Shown piece by piece: positions 12,279 through 18,854 of a stretch of 33,502 nucleotides of DNA. Under the pieces are notes generated by a model. The model made no database searches, was not told the origin of the DNA, and worked only from the letters and a program-made list of their open reading frames with translations. Each line of letters begins with the position of its first letter. Within the stretch, counting starts at the first letter, position 1. The DNA is from an uncultured Planctomycetota bacterium. GTDB lineage: Bacteria; Planctomycetota; Planctomycetia; Pirellulales; Thermoguttaceae. The DNA lies in contig CACXFR010000162.1 of the NCBI GenBank assembly GCA_902766935.1, positions 1 to 33,502 of the forward strand, in the 5' to 3' direction. Made by a program: the position numbers and the translations under genes.

Positions 12279-13571
12279 CTACACCTCTATCTGAACCGGC
12301 GGGCGTTCAAACTCCTCGGCGTGGAAATAGTCCAGTCTCTCGACGCCGCTCAGCCGGGCGACGAGCCCTTCGGGAAACGCCTCGCGCCGACTGTTCACAT
12401 ATTCCACCGTGTCGTTGTAATACTGCCGCGCCAGCGCGATCCGGTCTTCGGTTTGAGTAAGGTTCCTCTGCAGGTTCAAAAAGAGCTCGCTGCTTTTCAG
12501 GTCAGGATACTTTTCCATAACCGCCAGAACTTTGCCGGCGACGGGAGTAATCCCACCCCCTTGACGGACATCGTCGACGGAGCTGATGCCAAGCTGGCCG
12601 CGGAGAACCGCCAATTCCGCCTGCGTTTGGGCTTCGTAGTCCCGAAACCCCTTCACGGTCTCCAGAAGCGAACCGATCAGCGAGTGCCGGCGCTTTAACT
12701 CGACATCCACATTCGACTTGGCCTGTTTGGAACGGTTTTTCAGGTTCACCATCGAAAGATGAACAATCCAAACCCAGCCGAGCAAAACAATCAGCAATCC
12801 AGCCAGCGCTCCCCAGACCGCCTTCTGCTTATCCGAAAAGAGTGCGCCGAAAAAGATCGCCGAAAGGGCAATGCAAAAGAGACGGCAGACTATCGACGCG
12901 GCTCTCTGGCCGGACACATGTTTTTTTTCAGGTTTCGTCGAAATCAGGTAATCCCGAAAACGCTCGTCCCACGCCAATTCGGCGGCAGCGGCGTCATCGC
13001 GAACACGGGCACGTCCGTTAACGAAGATCTCCTGATGAACGGGAATGGCCGTTTCGCTAAACCTGCGGTTGCCGGTCGAGTCGCTGATCGGCAACTGGGG
13101 ACCTTTCGCATAGTAGAGAGAATCGCCTGGAGTGCAGCTGCGGTAATAGGTCGTTATCGGCTCAACCCGCGCCTTAACGGGATCGATGCGTACAACCCCG
13201 CTGTCATCCTGCAAGTAGAAAGGAAGAACTGAGGTTCCCCCGCCAACCGTCGTCCAGCCCGAGGTCTCCTGATCCTCGTACTCCTGATGGATGACCTTTG
13301 CCCGCTCTTCGGAAACTTTCACCTTTTCGACCCGGCGCCACTCCTCTTCCACTTTCCAGTCGTACCAGACGACCTCCTTTCCGGAAAGGGGCGCTCGGAG
13401 CGGAGATGCCGTTTCGGCGGTCCCCGCAACTTCAACATCACCGATAAAGACGCCGACCGCTTTCGACGTCGGCGTATCTTCAAAACGGCGGCGGCGCCTC
13501 TCCGCTTTCAGGAACCCCCAAAAACCGAGAAGGAAAAGAATTGCGGCAACGACGATAAAAAACGGATGCAT
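12279..13571 (-). CDS. GIDE-LemA fusion membrane protein
   Basis: A 430-residue membrane protein. A single hydrophobic helix (residues 4-21) opens it. Residues 40-220 match the GIDE module (the intermembrane part of mitochondrial MUL1/MAPL-type ligases): VEVAGTAE, PLSGKEVVWYDWKVEEEW, PFYLQDDSGVVRIDP, LYYAKGP and STGNRRFSE. Two further membrane helices follow at about 227-245 and 252-274. Residues 275-430 are a LemA domain (MVNLKNRSKQAKSNVDVEL at its start; LARQYYNDTVEYVNSRREAF near the end). No RING finger is present, so ubiquitin ligase activity is not implied. LemA is normally an independent membrane protein; joining it to GIDE puts both in one envelope-associated protein, probably for membrane stress or quality control. 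It lies 29 bases after yqhD on the same transcript. Confidence 0.88.
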   Translation of the reverse strand: MHPFFIVVAAILFLLGFWGFLKAERRRRRFEDTPTSKAVGVFIGDVEVAGTAETASPLRAPLSGKEVVWYDWKVEEEWRRVEKVKVSEERAKVIHQEYEDQETSGWTTVGGGTSVLPFYLQDDSGVVRIDPVKARVEPITTYYRSCTPGDSLYYAKGPQLPISDSTGNRRFSETAIPVHQEIFVNGRARVRDDAAAAELAWDERFRDYLISTKPEKKHVSGQRAASIVCRLFCIALSAIFFGALFSDKQKAVWGALAGLLIVLLGWVWIVHLSMVNLKNRSKQAKSNVDVELKRRHSLIGSLLETVKGFRDYEAQTQAELAVLRGQLGISSVDDVRQGGGITPVAGKVLAVMEKYPDLKSSELFLNLQRNLTQTEDRIALARQYYNDTVEYVNSRREAFPEGLVARLSGVERLDYFHAEEFERPPVQIEV

Positions 13572-15004: not shown

Positions 15005-16297
15005 ATGTTTACTCCGAATCGAATCACGGCATCCCCGATCCGCGTTCCGCGTCTTCTCGCGGCGGGGGCGTTTCTCCTCTTCGCCCTTCTTCCGGCGGTC
15101 CTTCGGGCCGGCGAGATTTCCTTTTACGGGGAAACCGAAAAAAATCCGCTCGCCTACGAGCCGGGGGAGGAGATCGTCTTTAACGTTCAGCTCCTCGACG
15201 ACGGAGTCCCCTGCGGCGGAAAGACGGTTCGCTGGCTCCGCACCGGCGACGACGGCAAGACCGAAGAGGGAGAGGCGGTTACCGACGCCGACCGTCCGCT
15301 TGCGATCCGCACGTCGATCGAGACCCCCGGCTTCGTCTGGCTCAAAGTCATCGCGCTCGACGAGGCGGGGAACAATATCCCCGGCGAAAACCACGAGTTT
15401 AACGGCGGCGCCGGCGTACTCCTCGATCGGCTCGGAAGCGCTCCCGAACCGGACGATTTCGACGCGTTCTGGGCGCGGCAGAAGGAACGTCTCGCCGAAG
15501 TCCCTCTTAAAGCGCACCTAACCGAAGTCGATTCGCCCGACAAAAACGTCAAATGCTACGATCTGCGGGTCGACTGCGTCGGCGCGCCCGTTTCCGGCTA
15601 CTTCTGCCTCCCGGCCGAAGCGAAAGAAAAATCGCTCCCGGCGCTTTTGGTTCTTCAGGGATACGGCGTCGCCTCGGCGAGCAAAGAAGCCGCCGCCGGA
15701 AAGACGCACCTGGCGCTCTGCATCAACGCGCACGGTATCGAAAACGGCCGGGACGCGGAATTCTATAAGAACCTGTTCGACACGACGCTGAAAAGCTACG
15801 GTCTTCCCTCCGCGTCGAATACCGATCCGGAAACCTCGTATTGGAACGGGGTGGCGATGCGCGTCATGCGCGCGCTCGAGTTCCTAAAATCGCGCCCCGA
15901 ATGGGACGGAAAGCATATCACTGTTACCGGAGGGAGCCAGGGGGGATTCCAGTCGATCCTCGCCGCCGCGCTCGACGGCGACGTGACCGCGTGCCATCTG
16001 AACGTCCCATGGTTCTGCGACGTTTCGGGAACCGCGCTCCAGGCGCGGAACCACTCGATCTTCCGCCCCGAATGGACCGAGGCGCTCGCATACTACGACG
16101 GGGTGAACCACGCCAAGCGGATCAAATGCCCCGTTACGATTTCCGCCGGGCTGGGCGACTACGTCTGCCCCCCCTCGGGCGTGATGACCCTCTACAACAA
16201 CCTGAATGTTCCGGTCAAGCTGACGTTCATTCAGGGGAACACTCACGGCCACACGATGAAGAACGGCGGAAAATACTCGATCGAAAAGAATCAATAG
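15005..16297 (+). CDS. Secreted CE7-type acetyl esterase (AXE1 family) with N-terminal domain
   Basis: A 430-residue exported protein. Residues 1-36 are a signal peptide with a long n-region and a hydrophobic core ending LPAVLRAG. Residues 38-135 resemble an Ig-like beta domain. From about 145 (FDAFWARQKERL) it is a carbohydrate esterase family 7 hydrolase, which removes acetyl groups from xylan fragments and other sugars. The catalytic triad is visible: Ser311 in GGSQGG, Asp in GLGDYVCPP, and His in NTHGHTM. The preceding VTGGSQGGFQ context matches AXE1 closely. GAGGT lies just before the ATG. It is probably co-transcribed with the Nudix gene 64 bases downstream. With the CE15 pair and GH39 protein it fits hemicellulose breakdown. 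Confidence 0.87.
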   Translation: MFTPNRITASPIRVPRLLAAGAFLLFALLPAVLRAGEISFYGETEKNPLAYEPGEEIVFNVQLLDDGVPCGGKTVRWLRTGDDGKTEEGEAVTDADRPLAIRTSIETPGFVWLKVIALDEAGNNIPGENHEFNGGAGVLLDRLGSAPEPDDFDAFWARQKERLAEVPLKAHLTEVDSPDKNVKCYDLRVDCVGAPVSGYFCLPAEAKEKSLPALLVLQGYGVASASKEAAAGKTHLALCINAHGIENGRDAEFYKNLFDTTLKSYGLPSASNTDPETSYWNGVAMRVMRALEFLKSRPEWDGKHITVTGGSQGGFQSILAAALDGDVTACHLNVPWFCDVSGTALQARNHSIFRPEWTEALAYYDGVNHAKRIKCPVTISAGLGDYVCPPSGVMTLYNNLNVPVKLTFIQGNTHGHTMKNGGKYSIEKNQ

Positions 16298-16955: not shown

Positions 16956-18854
16956 ATGAATCGACCATCCCTGAAATCCCGTAAACTTCGCCTGGAATCG
17001 CTCGAAGAGCGGCGGCTTCTCTCGGTCAACTGGGTCGTCACAACGAACACCGACTACTCGGCGTGGGCTGAAGATGACTCGATTATCTGTCTGCGCGAAG
17101 CGCTCAGCCGCGCCGGGGACGACGATCTGATCACGTTCAGTCCGAACCTTCCGGGGACCACGTTTACGCTGAAATACGGCGAACTGCCGGTCAACTCGGC
17201 CGTCACCATCGACGGCGACAGTCTCCGCGCCGCCAGCGGAACCAACCGTCTTGTCATCAACGCCAACAGCAGGAGCCGGATCTTCAATGTTGCCGAAGGC
17301 GCTTCGCTCACCCTTCGTTCGGCGAACATGACAAACGGCTACTCGTCCGGCGACGGCGGCGCCATCTACAACAAGGGAACGCTCATACTCGAAAACTGCA
17401 ACATTACCGCCTCACGGGCTAAGGAGGGCGGCGGGATATTCTCGTTCCATGCCGACGTTTCTATGAACGGCGGATCCGTCATCAATTGTTCCGTCTCCGA
17501 ATTTGGCGGGGGTCTGTACATCTATTGGGGGTCCCTCACCCTGGACGGTGTTTCGGTCAGCAACTGTTCGTCAGATATGTCGGGAGCCGGAATCGACGTC
17601 AGCGACGCCGAAACCTATATTACCCGTTCGACCATTTCGAATAACCGAATCACCAATTCCTACTATTTCGCCGCGGGGATCTACGCTCACGGGGGGTACA
17701 TGTCGATCTCCGACAGTAAAATCGTCGGAAACGTCAGTTACAACTACGGCGGCGGTATCTACATTCACGATATGGAAGCGGTCATTACCAACTCGCTCAT
17801 CGCCGGCAACAAGTCGACCTACACGGGGGCGGGAATCGAGAACTTCGGACAGCTGACCCTGCGTCAATGCACGATCACCGGAAACCACACGACCGGGGAC
17901 TATTCCGGCGGCGCCGGAATCTTCAACTACTACGGCTCGGGAATGTACGTCGACGCTTACAACTGCATTATCGCCGGAAACACCAGCGCCTCGGGGAAGG
18001 TAACCTGCGATTACGAAGGAAACGGTTACGGATACGCCTACAACATCCTGACGGGGAACATTGACGACTGGAATTATACCGAACTCTTCTTCGAATACGA
18101 TCCGGCTCTCCCGCTCTTTACCAATCCCGATGAAGGAATCTACACGCTCGCCGAAGGGTCTCAGGCAATCGACCTGGGCGAAGACGCCTACGTATTCTAC
18201 GATGACGGTTCCGACATTGAATACGACCTTGCGGGGAAAGACCGTTTCTACGGCCTTAGCGTCGACCTGGGCGCGTATGAATATTCCCCCTTAACCCCTC
18301 TGGACGCGCCGACCGGGGTTACCGTCACCGCCGCCGGGGCGAATCGCATGCGCGTCACATGGAACGAGGCCGCTGATAACAGCGGGTACAAAGTAGCGTG
18401 GTCCGACGACCAGATCACCTGGAACGAGGCCTTCTGCGCAGAAAACACCATCCGCGTCACCGGACTTGCGTACGGCGAGACGTACTACTTCAAAGTGATG
18501 GCGTTGGGGGACGGCGTCACGTATGCAAATTCCGACTACTCGGCCTCCGTCGCCGGTCTGGTCTGCCCCGTCGATATCGACGGGGACGGGTTCATCGGAC
18601 CGGGCGACAACTCGATCCTTTCGGCGGCCTGGTTTACCCTCGAGGGAAGCGGCAACTGGGACGAGCGGTGTGATATCGACGGCGACGGATTTATCGGGCC
18701 GGGCGACCGTTCCTTCCTTTCGGTCAACTGGTTCAAGACGACAGACCAGGGAACGATCGTCTATCCCCCCGCGCTGGCCGCGGCAGTCAGTTCCGAAAAC
18801 ATTTTTGCCTCCCTCGACGACGAACTCGAAGAGATTTTAGAGGGAATGTTCTGA
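16956..18854 (+). CDS. Secreted beta-helix protein with LEPR-xLL motif, Fn3 domain and dockerin-like repeats
   Basis: A 632-residue exported protein. Residues 1-24 carry the planctomycete LEPR-xLL type motif (LESLEERRLLSV) in place of a classical signal peptide. Residues 25-70 include ICLREALSRAGDDD, a form of the CSLREA motif found at the start of exported right-handed beta-helix proteins. Residues 70-440 are a parallel beta-helix with repeated GGGIY/GAGI turns and Ser/Asn-rich strands. Residues 449-536 form a fibronectin type III domain. Then come two EF-hand loops, DIDGDGFIGPGD at 540-551 and 573-584, each followed by SxxWF, as in type I dockerins. A 28-residue acidic tail follows. AGAGGA precedes the ATG. 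It probably binds or cleaves polysaccharide, or docks on a surface partner. No catalytic residues could be assigned. Confidence 0.85.
   Translation: MNRPSLKSRKLRLESLEERRLLSVNWVVTTNTDYSAWAEDDSIICLREALSRAGDDDLITFSPNLPGTTFTLKYGELPVNSAVTIDGDSLRAASGTNRLVINANSRSRIFNVAEGASLTLRSANMTNGYSSGDGGAIYNKGTLILENCNITASRAKEGGGIFSFHADVSMNGGSVINCSVSEFGGGLYIYWGSLTLDGVSVSNCSSDMSGAGIDVSDAETYITRSTISNNRITNSYYFAAGIYAHGGYMSISDSKIVGNVSYNYGGGIYIHDMEAVITNSLIAGNKSTYTGAGIENFGQLTLRQCTITGNHTTGDYSGGAGIFNYYGSGMYVDAYNCIIAGNTSASGKVTCDYEGNGYGYAYNILTGNIDDWNYTELFFEYDPALPLFTNPDEGIYTLAEGSQAIDLGEDAYVFYDDGSDIEYDLAGKDRFYGLSVDLGAYEYSPLTPLDAPTGVTVTAAGANRMRVTWNEAADNSGYKVAWSDDQITWNEAFCAENTIRVTGLAYGETYYFKVMALGDGVTYANSDYSASVAGLVCPVDIDGDGFIGPGDNSILSAAWFTLEGSGNWDERCDIDGDGFIGPGDRSFLSVNWFKTTDQGTIVYPPALAAAVSSENIFASLDDELEEILEGMF

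Follow-up and report, generated by a model that had tools for sequence, protein, structure and literature searches.

A predicted dockerin on a LEPR-xLL protein of a ruminant-gut planctomycete and its candidate cohesin-like partners

Cohesin-dockerin assembly is best known from clostridial cellulosomes. The locus described here raises the question of what a pair of EF-hand loops, of the kind from which dockerins are built, is doing near the C-terminus of a planctomycete LEPR-xLL protein, and onto what, if anything, it docks. The gene lies in a stretch of 33,502 nucleotides, hereafter the window, from a ruminant-gut Thermoguttaceae-type metagenome-assembled genome (MAG) of 2.21 Mb in 267 contigs that is 83% complete. 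Its named relatives are likewise ruminant MAGs, namely RUG14216, RUG695, RGIG9609 (yak duodenum) and RGIG2308 (goat duodenum), the latter two labelled Thermoguttaceae. An initial annotation had described the protein as a LEPR-xLL beta-helix protein with a terminal double dockerin-like module, possibly part of a scaffold or surface docking system. What it observed in the gene was confirmed, and its interpretation was supported in part. The features of the gene are as follows.

16956..18854, plus strand: whole gene; LEPR-xLL protein with probable beta-helix, Fn3, dockerin and acidic tail; 632 aa, ATG start
16977..17027, plus strand: LEPR-xLL / Planc_extracel N-terminal motif, residues 8-24; PF07595 just below cut-off
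17241..18296, plus strand: probable right-handed beta-helix with a choice-of-anchor-Q-like segment at its end, residues 96-447 (approximate limits; repeats by eye)
18303..18515, plus strand: fibronectin type III (Fn3) domain, residues 450-520; PF00041, E 1.6e-8
18555..18749, plus strand: dockerin module, residues 534-598, predicted from paralogue spacing and the fold match to 2y3n_B
18573..18608, plus strand: EF-hand loop 1, DIDGDGFIGPGD, residues 540-551, then a helix to SAAWF (sequence and model)
18672..18707, plus strand: EF-hand loop 2, DIDGDGFIGPGD, residues 573-584, then a helix to SVNWF (sequence and model)
18768..18851, plus strand: acidic C-terminal tail, with a predicted helix at the end; common to cohesin-bearing proteins of the genus

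The LEPR-xLL N-terminus that had been reported is present, with LESLEERRLLSV occupying residues 13-24. The PF07595 (Planc_extracel) model scored 20 bits on the protein alone and 24.8 bits when the genome was scanned, short of its cut-off of 25.5, which some paralogues exceeded in the same scan. Despite this sub-threshold score the motif is easily recognised by eye, and it probably directs export of the protein. The Fn3 domain was borne out by the PF00041 match. For the beta-helix the claim held in part: the repeats and a choice_anch_Q match (NF041518, NCBIfam; residues 397-443, 23.4 bits, just below the cut-off of 25) speak for it, but Pfam Beta_helix gave no match on the window protein. The central region is thus likely a beta-helix. 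The two 12-residue loops are identical and each is followed by an SxxWF motif, as had been noted. At the DNA level the two copies show four synonymous differences, suggesting that the identity of the loops has been kept by selection rather than by very recent copying.

The surroundings of the gene are conserved in relatives. Genes for an AXE1-type esterase, a NUDIX protein and a GFO/IDH/MocA protein flank the orthologue in two of them (L036 and L038), and in a third (L037) the NUDIX and GFO genes are present. The esterase of the window (15005-16297), an AXE1-type acetyl xylan esterase close to the gene, carries no dockerin, and its synteny is kept in two of the three relatives. A gene on the minus strand (12279-13571) encodes one protein that matched both the LemA and the GIDE (E3 ligase-like) models.

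We examined the double EF-hand with an AlphaFold2 model built from a 30-row alignment, in which helices follow both loops and the pLDDT exceeded 90 for residues 11-70 of the modelled segment (means of ten-residue blocks). The best VIA-align match was a type II dockerin, 2y3n_B (Z 8.8, rmsd 2.0 A, 60 of 60 residues aligned), and all 18 rows returned by this search were dockerin-containing chains. In a Foldseek search against the PDB, the best 16 rows were also dockerin-containing chains, at weak E-values (best 6e-3). The Dockerin_1 model (PF00404) scored 18.5 bits on the module and 14 bits in the whole protein, below its cut-off of 22.9, and it passed the cut-off in the relatives L034 (32.7 bits), L052 (47.1 bits) and L161 (40.4 bits), which places the sequence of the window module at the edge of the Pfam dockerin family. 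From the model we consider it very likely that the double EF-hand has a dockerin fold, and the two loops presumably bind calcium. The term "double dockerin" needs correction, since the two loops together build a single dockerin. A calmodulin-type EF-hand was considered and set aside, as calmodulins fill the PDB sequence search yet rank after the dockerins in Foldseek and are absent from VIA-align. A disulfide between the cysteines preceding each loop was also discarded, because these residues are not paired: some modules have both, others one or none.

A search for further EF-hand pairs, which the initial annotation had proposed, revealed 18 dockerin modules in the same genome. The distance from loop to loop is exactly 33 residues in all 18, so that the pair is not a chance occurrence, and Dockerin_1 matched 17 of the 18 at E <=1 (best 6.6e-10). 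The modules are mostly preceded by an Fn3 domain. They lie close behind the LEPR-xLL motif in GDSL and other hydrolases and in an endonuclease/exonuclease/phosphatase, and at the C-terminal end in beta-helix and C39-like peptidase proteins. Five genomes of the genus contain 18 (the genome of the window), 33, 22, 47 and 25 dockerins, and two others (G002 and G005) contain 0 and 1. Beyond the genus, no match had an E-value below 9.9e-11; matches at E <=1e-3 occurred in 21 of the 40 genomes searched. The LEPR-xLL motif is found on nearly all dockerin and cohesin-like frames with a complete N-terminus. In several loci (L023, L040, L043 and L044) at least two neighbouring genes form a tandem array in which every gene is closed by a dockerin, and one member of the L023 array scored 23.8 bits with Peptidase_C39_2 (cut-off 24). 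No relatives of the dockerin or cohesin-like modules were found in viral contigs.

A search of the genome for cohesins had likewise been suggested. Pfam Cohesin (PF00963) gave scores of 17.6 and 14.1 bits there, below its cut-off. With a model built from three related domains, we detected three cohesin-like domains in this genome and 9, 6, 13 and 8 in the other four dockerin-rich genomes of the genus, and no match in G002 and G005. A broader model added a second, truncated cohesin-like domain in tandem where contig C83 of the window's genome ends, so that the search yielded three domains and a fourth cut by the contig end. The outcomes that the initial annotation had named as speaking against it, namely a genome with neither a cohesin-like partner nor another protein bearing the repeat, or a predicted fold other than the dockerin, did not occur. 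Both module types thus occur in numbers in five of the seven genus genomes (18-47 dockerins and 3-13 cohesin-like domains). Among the 40 genomes, cohesin-like matches were found in 12, all of which also had dockerin matches, 9 had dockerin matches only and 19 had neither (Fisher p 6e-5, uncorrected for kinship). G002 and G005 still have some LEPR-xLL matches, and they offer a natural loss or gain for comparison.

Several comparisons bear on whether these domains are cohesins. PF00963 exceeded its cut-off in two of the seven genus genomes (28.4 and 24.8 bits, or 28.8 and 25.0 when the domains were scored by themselves), was sub-threshold in three and gave nothing in two. One of its matches spans positions 7-137 of 139, and it matched 11 of the 34 cohesin-like domains at E <=1, with a best value of 1.6e-6. 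An hhalign comparison of the family with 14 cohesins, seven from a rumen Ruminococcus and seven Pfam-called ones from planctomycetes, gave an E-value of 1.2e-5 over just 42 columns; the Fn3 control reached 0.099. In a PDB sequence search with a cohesin-like domain, PLK4 (E 0.14) ranked above the cohesins (0.18 and 0.25), and the NCBIfam search of these domains returned nothing relevant. We regard the domains as putative cohesins and as candidate partners of the dockerins. Support from other genera was sought and abandoned, because the cohesin-like model and PF00963 matched there at different places; outside the genus, the two sets of matches may represent different domains. Proteins of L032 (4440-5873) and L052 (2880-4436) have a divergent cohesin-like domain in the middle, flanked on both sides by a dockerin; Pfam Cohesin gave this domain 14.1 bits in the genome of the window and no row in L052, where a single-sequence fold reached a pLDDT of 34.9. 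A scaffold-type cohesin fragment of the same genome (G000:C120:8877-9065) contains two TGA stops, probably because the copy has decayed or was misassembled.

If the cohesin-like domains are indeed cohesins, their arrangement resembles that of scaffolds. The clearest one, L153 on contig G004:C22, has a LEPR-xLL motif followed by four cohesin-like domains in an 859-aa frame that reaches the contig end; scanned whole with Pfam, it gave no Cohesin row. At the end of another contig, L161 (G004:C8) has a cohesin-like domain nearly identical to these together with an Fn3-like stretch, a dockerin and the tail, and the near-identical repeats at the two contig ends suggest that L153 may continue in L161. 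L133 (2418 aa) and L164 have two cohesin-like domains each, and L182, in the genome of the window, has one and a truncated second. A scaffold-type model matched 7 of 119 genomes of the family, the strong matches being the same five genomes of genus g1. We counted 31 cohesin-bearing frames, leaving out cohesin places at the ends of contigs G006:C73 and G001:C264; 17 of the 31 run off a contig end, which would fit repeats breaking the assemblies. Two very long frames were also noticed. L176:1434-17636 (G006:C159) is a 5,401-aa LEPR-xLL frame with a C-terminal dockerin and tail, adjoining a cohesin-plus-dockerin frame, and G004:C11 holds, at about 5656-50820, a single frame of 15,097 residues that matches LEPR-xLL close to its start and the tail model (E 9e-4) close to its end.

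Of the 31 cohesin-bearing frames, 19 include a dockerin as well, so that chains could in principle grow, and such hybrids could polymerise into fibres or a surface layer that the window protein caps or decorates. We regard this lattice as unlikely to be the main explanation, as neither the window protein nor most dockerin proteins of G004 carry a cohesin, and it would supplement docking rather than replace it. A more serious alternative is that the module no longer docks and acts as a calcium-stabilised cap or spacer, the cohesin-like domains being unrelated beta-sandwich repeats. The assignment of these domains as cohesins is weak and partial, one genome (G032) has 28 dockerin matches and no match to the cohesin-like model, and the position of the dockerins within their frames varies from N-terminal to central to terminal, all of which would suit a cap, although G032 does have one PF00963 match. 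Nevertheless, PF00963 passes its cut-off in two genomes, in one case with nearly the full-length match given above, the two modules are absent together from G002 and, bar one weak dockerin match, from G005, and tandem cohesin-like domains in a single frame would otherwise be hard to explain. We therefore give the cap roughly one chance in a handful.

A third possibility is that the partner is foreign, for example the cellulosome scaffold of a rumen Ruminococcus. The relatives of the organism are ruminant-gut MAGs, and canonical cohesins occur in that habitat too, with 7 PF00963 places over the cut-off in one Ruminococcus genome (G041, locus L061). On the other hand, the same planctomycete genomes have cohesin-like domains of their own, which makes a foreign scaffold unnecessary, and the window dockerin is only 30% identical to the Ruminococcus dockerin found (L061); we consider this explanation very improbable. 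Overall, we prefer the hypothesis that the window dockerin docks onto the cohesin-like domains of its own genome, which are assigned by sequence; this docking is probable though well short of assured.

The cargo of such a system was surveyed in G004, where 44 dockerin proteins from 47 frames were scanned after omission of two 79-aa end fragments and one overlapping duplicate. Among the 25 families listed of 33, the matches included Dockerin_1 (25 proteins), Planc_extracel (8), DUF5123 (7), Chlam_PMP (6), Beta_helix (4), Peptidase_S9 (3), Lipase_GDSL_2 (2), Exo_endo_phos (2), BNR_2 (2) and Phage_lysozyme2 (1). No cellulase or xylanase family was found among these 25 of 33, nor was any plant cell wall glycoside hydrolase in ten dockerin proteins of the window's genome at E <=1e-3. 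In view of the lack of cellulases and xylanases among the listed families, we would call the system cellulosome-like in its proposed mechanism rather than a cellulosome.

The acidic tail had been singled out as odd for a terminal dockerin. It is real and conserved, but appears to be a separate C-terminal element. Over the last 19 residues, three orthologues show 63, 79 and 79% identity, as compared with 66, 68 and 87% for the rest of the protein, so it is about as well conserved as the remainder. In the AlphaFold2 module model it is predicted to be helical, at lower confidence. The pattern is roughly [DE]x[IVA]FAx[FLY] followed by about ten residues and a final F, and was found only in genomes with docking modules: a model of the 27-residue tail matched, at E <=0.1, 7, 16, 7, 28 and 14 places in the five docking genomes and nothing in G002 or G005, while the 33 other genomes gave a single weak match (E 0.06). 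A similar tail closes the three cohesin-only proteins with known ends (L133, L164 and L174), which indicates that the tail does not belong to the dockerin. Most enzymes with an N-terminal dockerin lack it, as do the C39-like proteins, so export seems not to require it. The likeliest role for the tail is that of a C-terminal sorting or anchoring signal.

On these grounds, we propose the following mechanism. The window protein would be exported and probably surface-bound, and its calcium-loaded C-terminal dockerin would plug into the cohesin-like domains of further LEPR-xLL proteins that the same cell makes. These scaffolds, with a LEPR-xLL motif, one to at least four cohesins and in some cases a terminal dockerin of their own, would gather cargo that bears a dockerin, namely beta-helix proteins, esterases, peptidases, sialidase-like proteins and nucleases, on the cell surface or close to it. 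The acidic tail would act outside docking, as a separate signal or anchor at the C-terminus. A wider proposal, which we put forward only tentatively and hold to be less probable than not, is that ruminant-gut Thermoguttaceae possess a surface system of cohesins and dockerins that is not tied to the degradation of plant cell walls, with mainly beta-helix, adhesin-like cargo and a two-part tag, LEPR-xLL plus the new acidic tail, on scaffold and cargo.

Type II cellulosome pairs (Bacteroides cellulosolvens 2y3n; Clostridium thermocellum 2b59 and 3kcp) share with this system the two calcium-loop-helix repeats, the same predicted fold, tandem cohesins (here cohesin-like domains) on a scaffold and, in some cohesin proteins, a terminal dockerin. 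The genus differs from them in its GPGD loop ends and SxxW(F/L) helices, in the Fn3 domain, instead of an X module, that usually precedes the dockerin, in cohesins that mostly score below the Pfam cut-off, in the LEPR-xLL N-terminus and in the cargo, with no cellulase or xylanase among the 25 of 33 families listed. The LEPR-xLL family itself (PF07595), which matches residues 8-24 of the window protein, is silent on docking.

A docking system had been thought new to the phylum, but earlier proposals exist. In the accessible text of PMC6461901, a "planctosome" cohesin/dockerin system was proposed in 2019 for freshwater Planctomycetes (Nemodlikiaceae), and going by that text it is the closest precedent: planctomycete cohesin and dockerin proteins, a proposed non-cellulosic role and evidence from genomes only. 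Its described features are a lamin-tail anchor, P-domains, M12B and M14 peptidases and one cohesin per scaffold. The lamin-tail anchor, P-domain, M12B and M14 are absent among the 25 of 33 families listed for G004, and here we instead find LEPR-xLL proteins, putative scaffolds with up to at least four cohesin-like domains, cargo of the beta-helix, esterase and C39-like kinds and a shared C-terminal tail. Limihaloglobus sulfuriphilus, a PVC bacterium compared here by description rather than by sequence, also has multi-cohesin proteins; the sections consulted of PMC11557425 describe scaffoldins with at most two cohesins, and its authors judge conventional cellulosomes unlikely. Ca. Stygibacter (Cloacimonadota), as far as described in the available portion of PMC8542988, shares a tandem-cohesin scaffold, dockerin-bearing peptidases and a C-terminal attachment domain, but belongs to another phylum, has glycoside hydrolases and carbohydrate-binding domains and differs in the C-terminal domain. 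A study of the camel rumen, with two Planctomycetota MAGs in its data, reported cohesins from Firmicutes_A alone, according to the part available (PMC9177762), and a Japanese cattle-rumen paper, in its accessible part, counted Pfam cohesins and dockerins in MAGs, one planctomycete among them. No account of the docking system of this genus was found in our literature search, which relied partly on incomplete texts and covered subscription journals poorly.

What is new here is the combination of LEPR-xLL-borne, divergent putative cohesins, mostly non-cellulase cargo and a shared C-terminal tail. Because most of the domains score below the Pfam cut-off, surveys of cohesins can miss such a system. 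If docking is true, protein engineering would gain new orthogonal pairs. With the shared C-terminal tail, the arrival and retention of LEPR-xLL proteins at the surface become testable, and ruminant-gut planctomycetes would, if the docking hypothesis is correct, display mostly non-cellulase surface proteins by a plug-and-socket arrangement.
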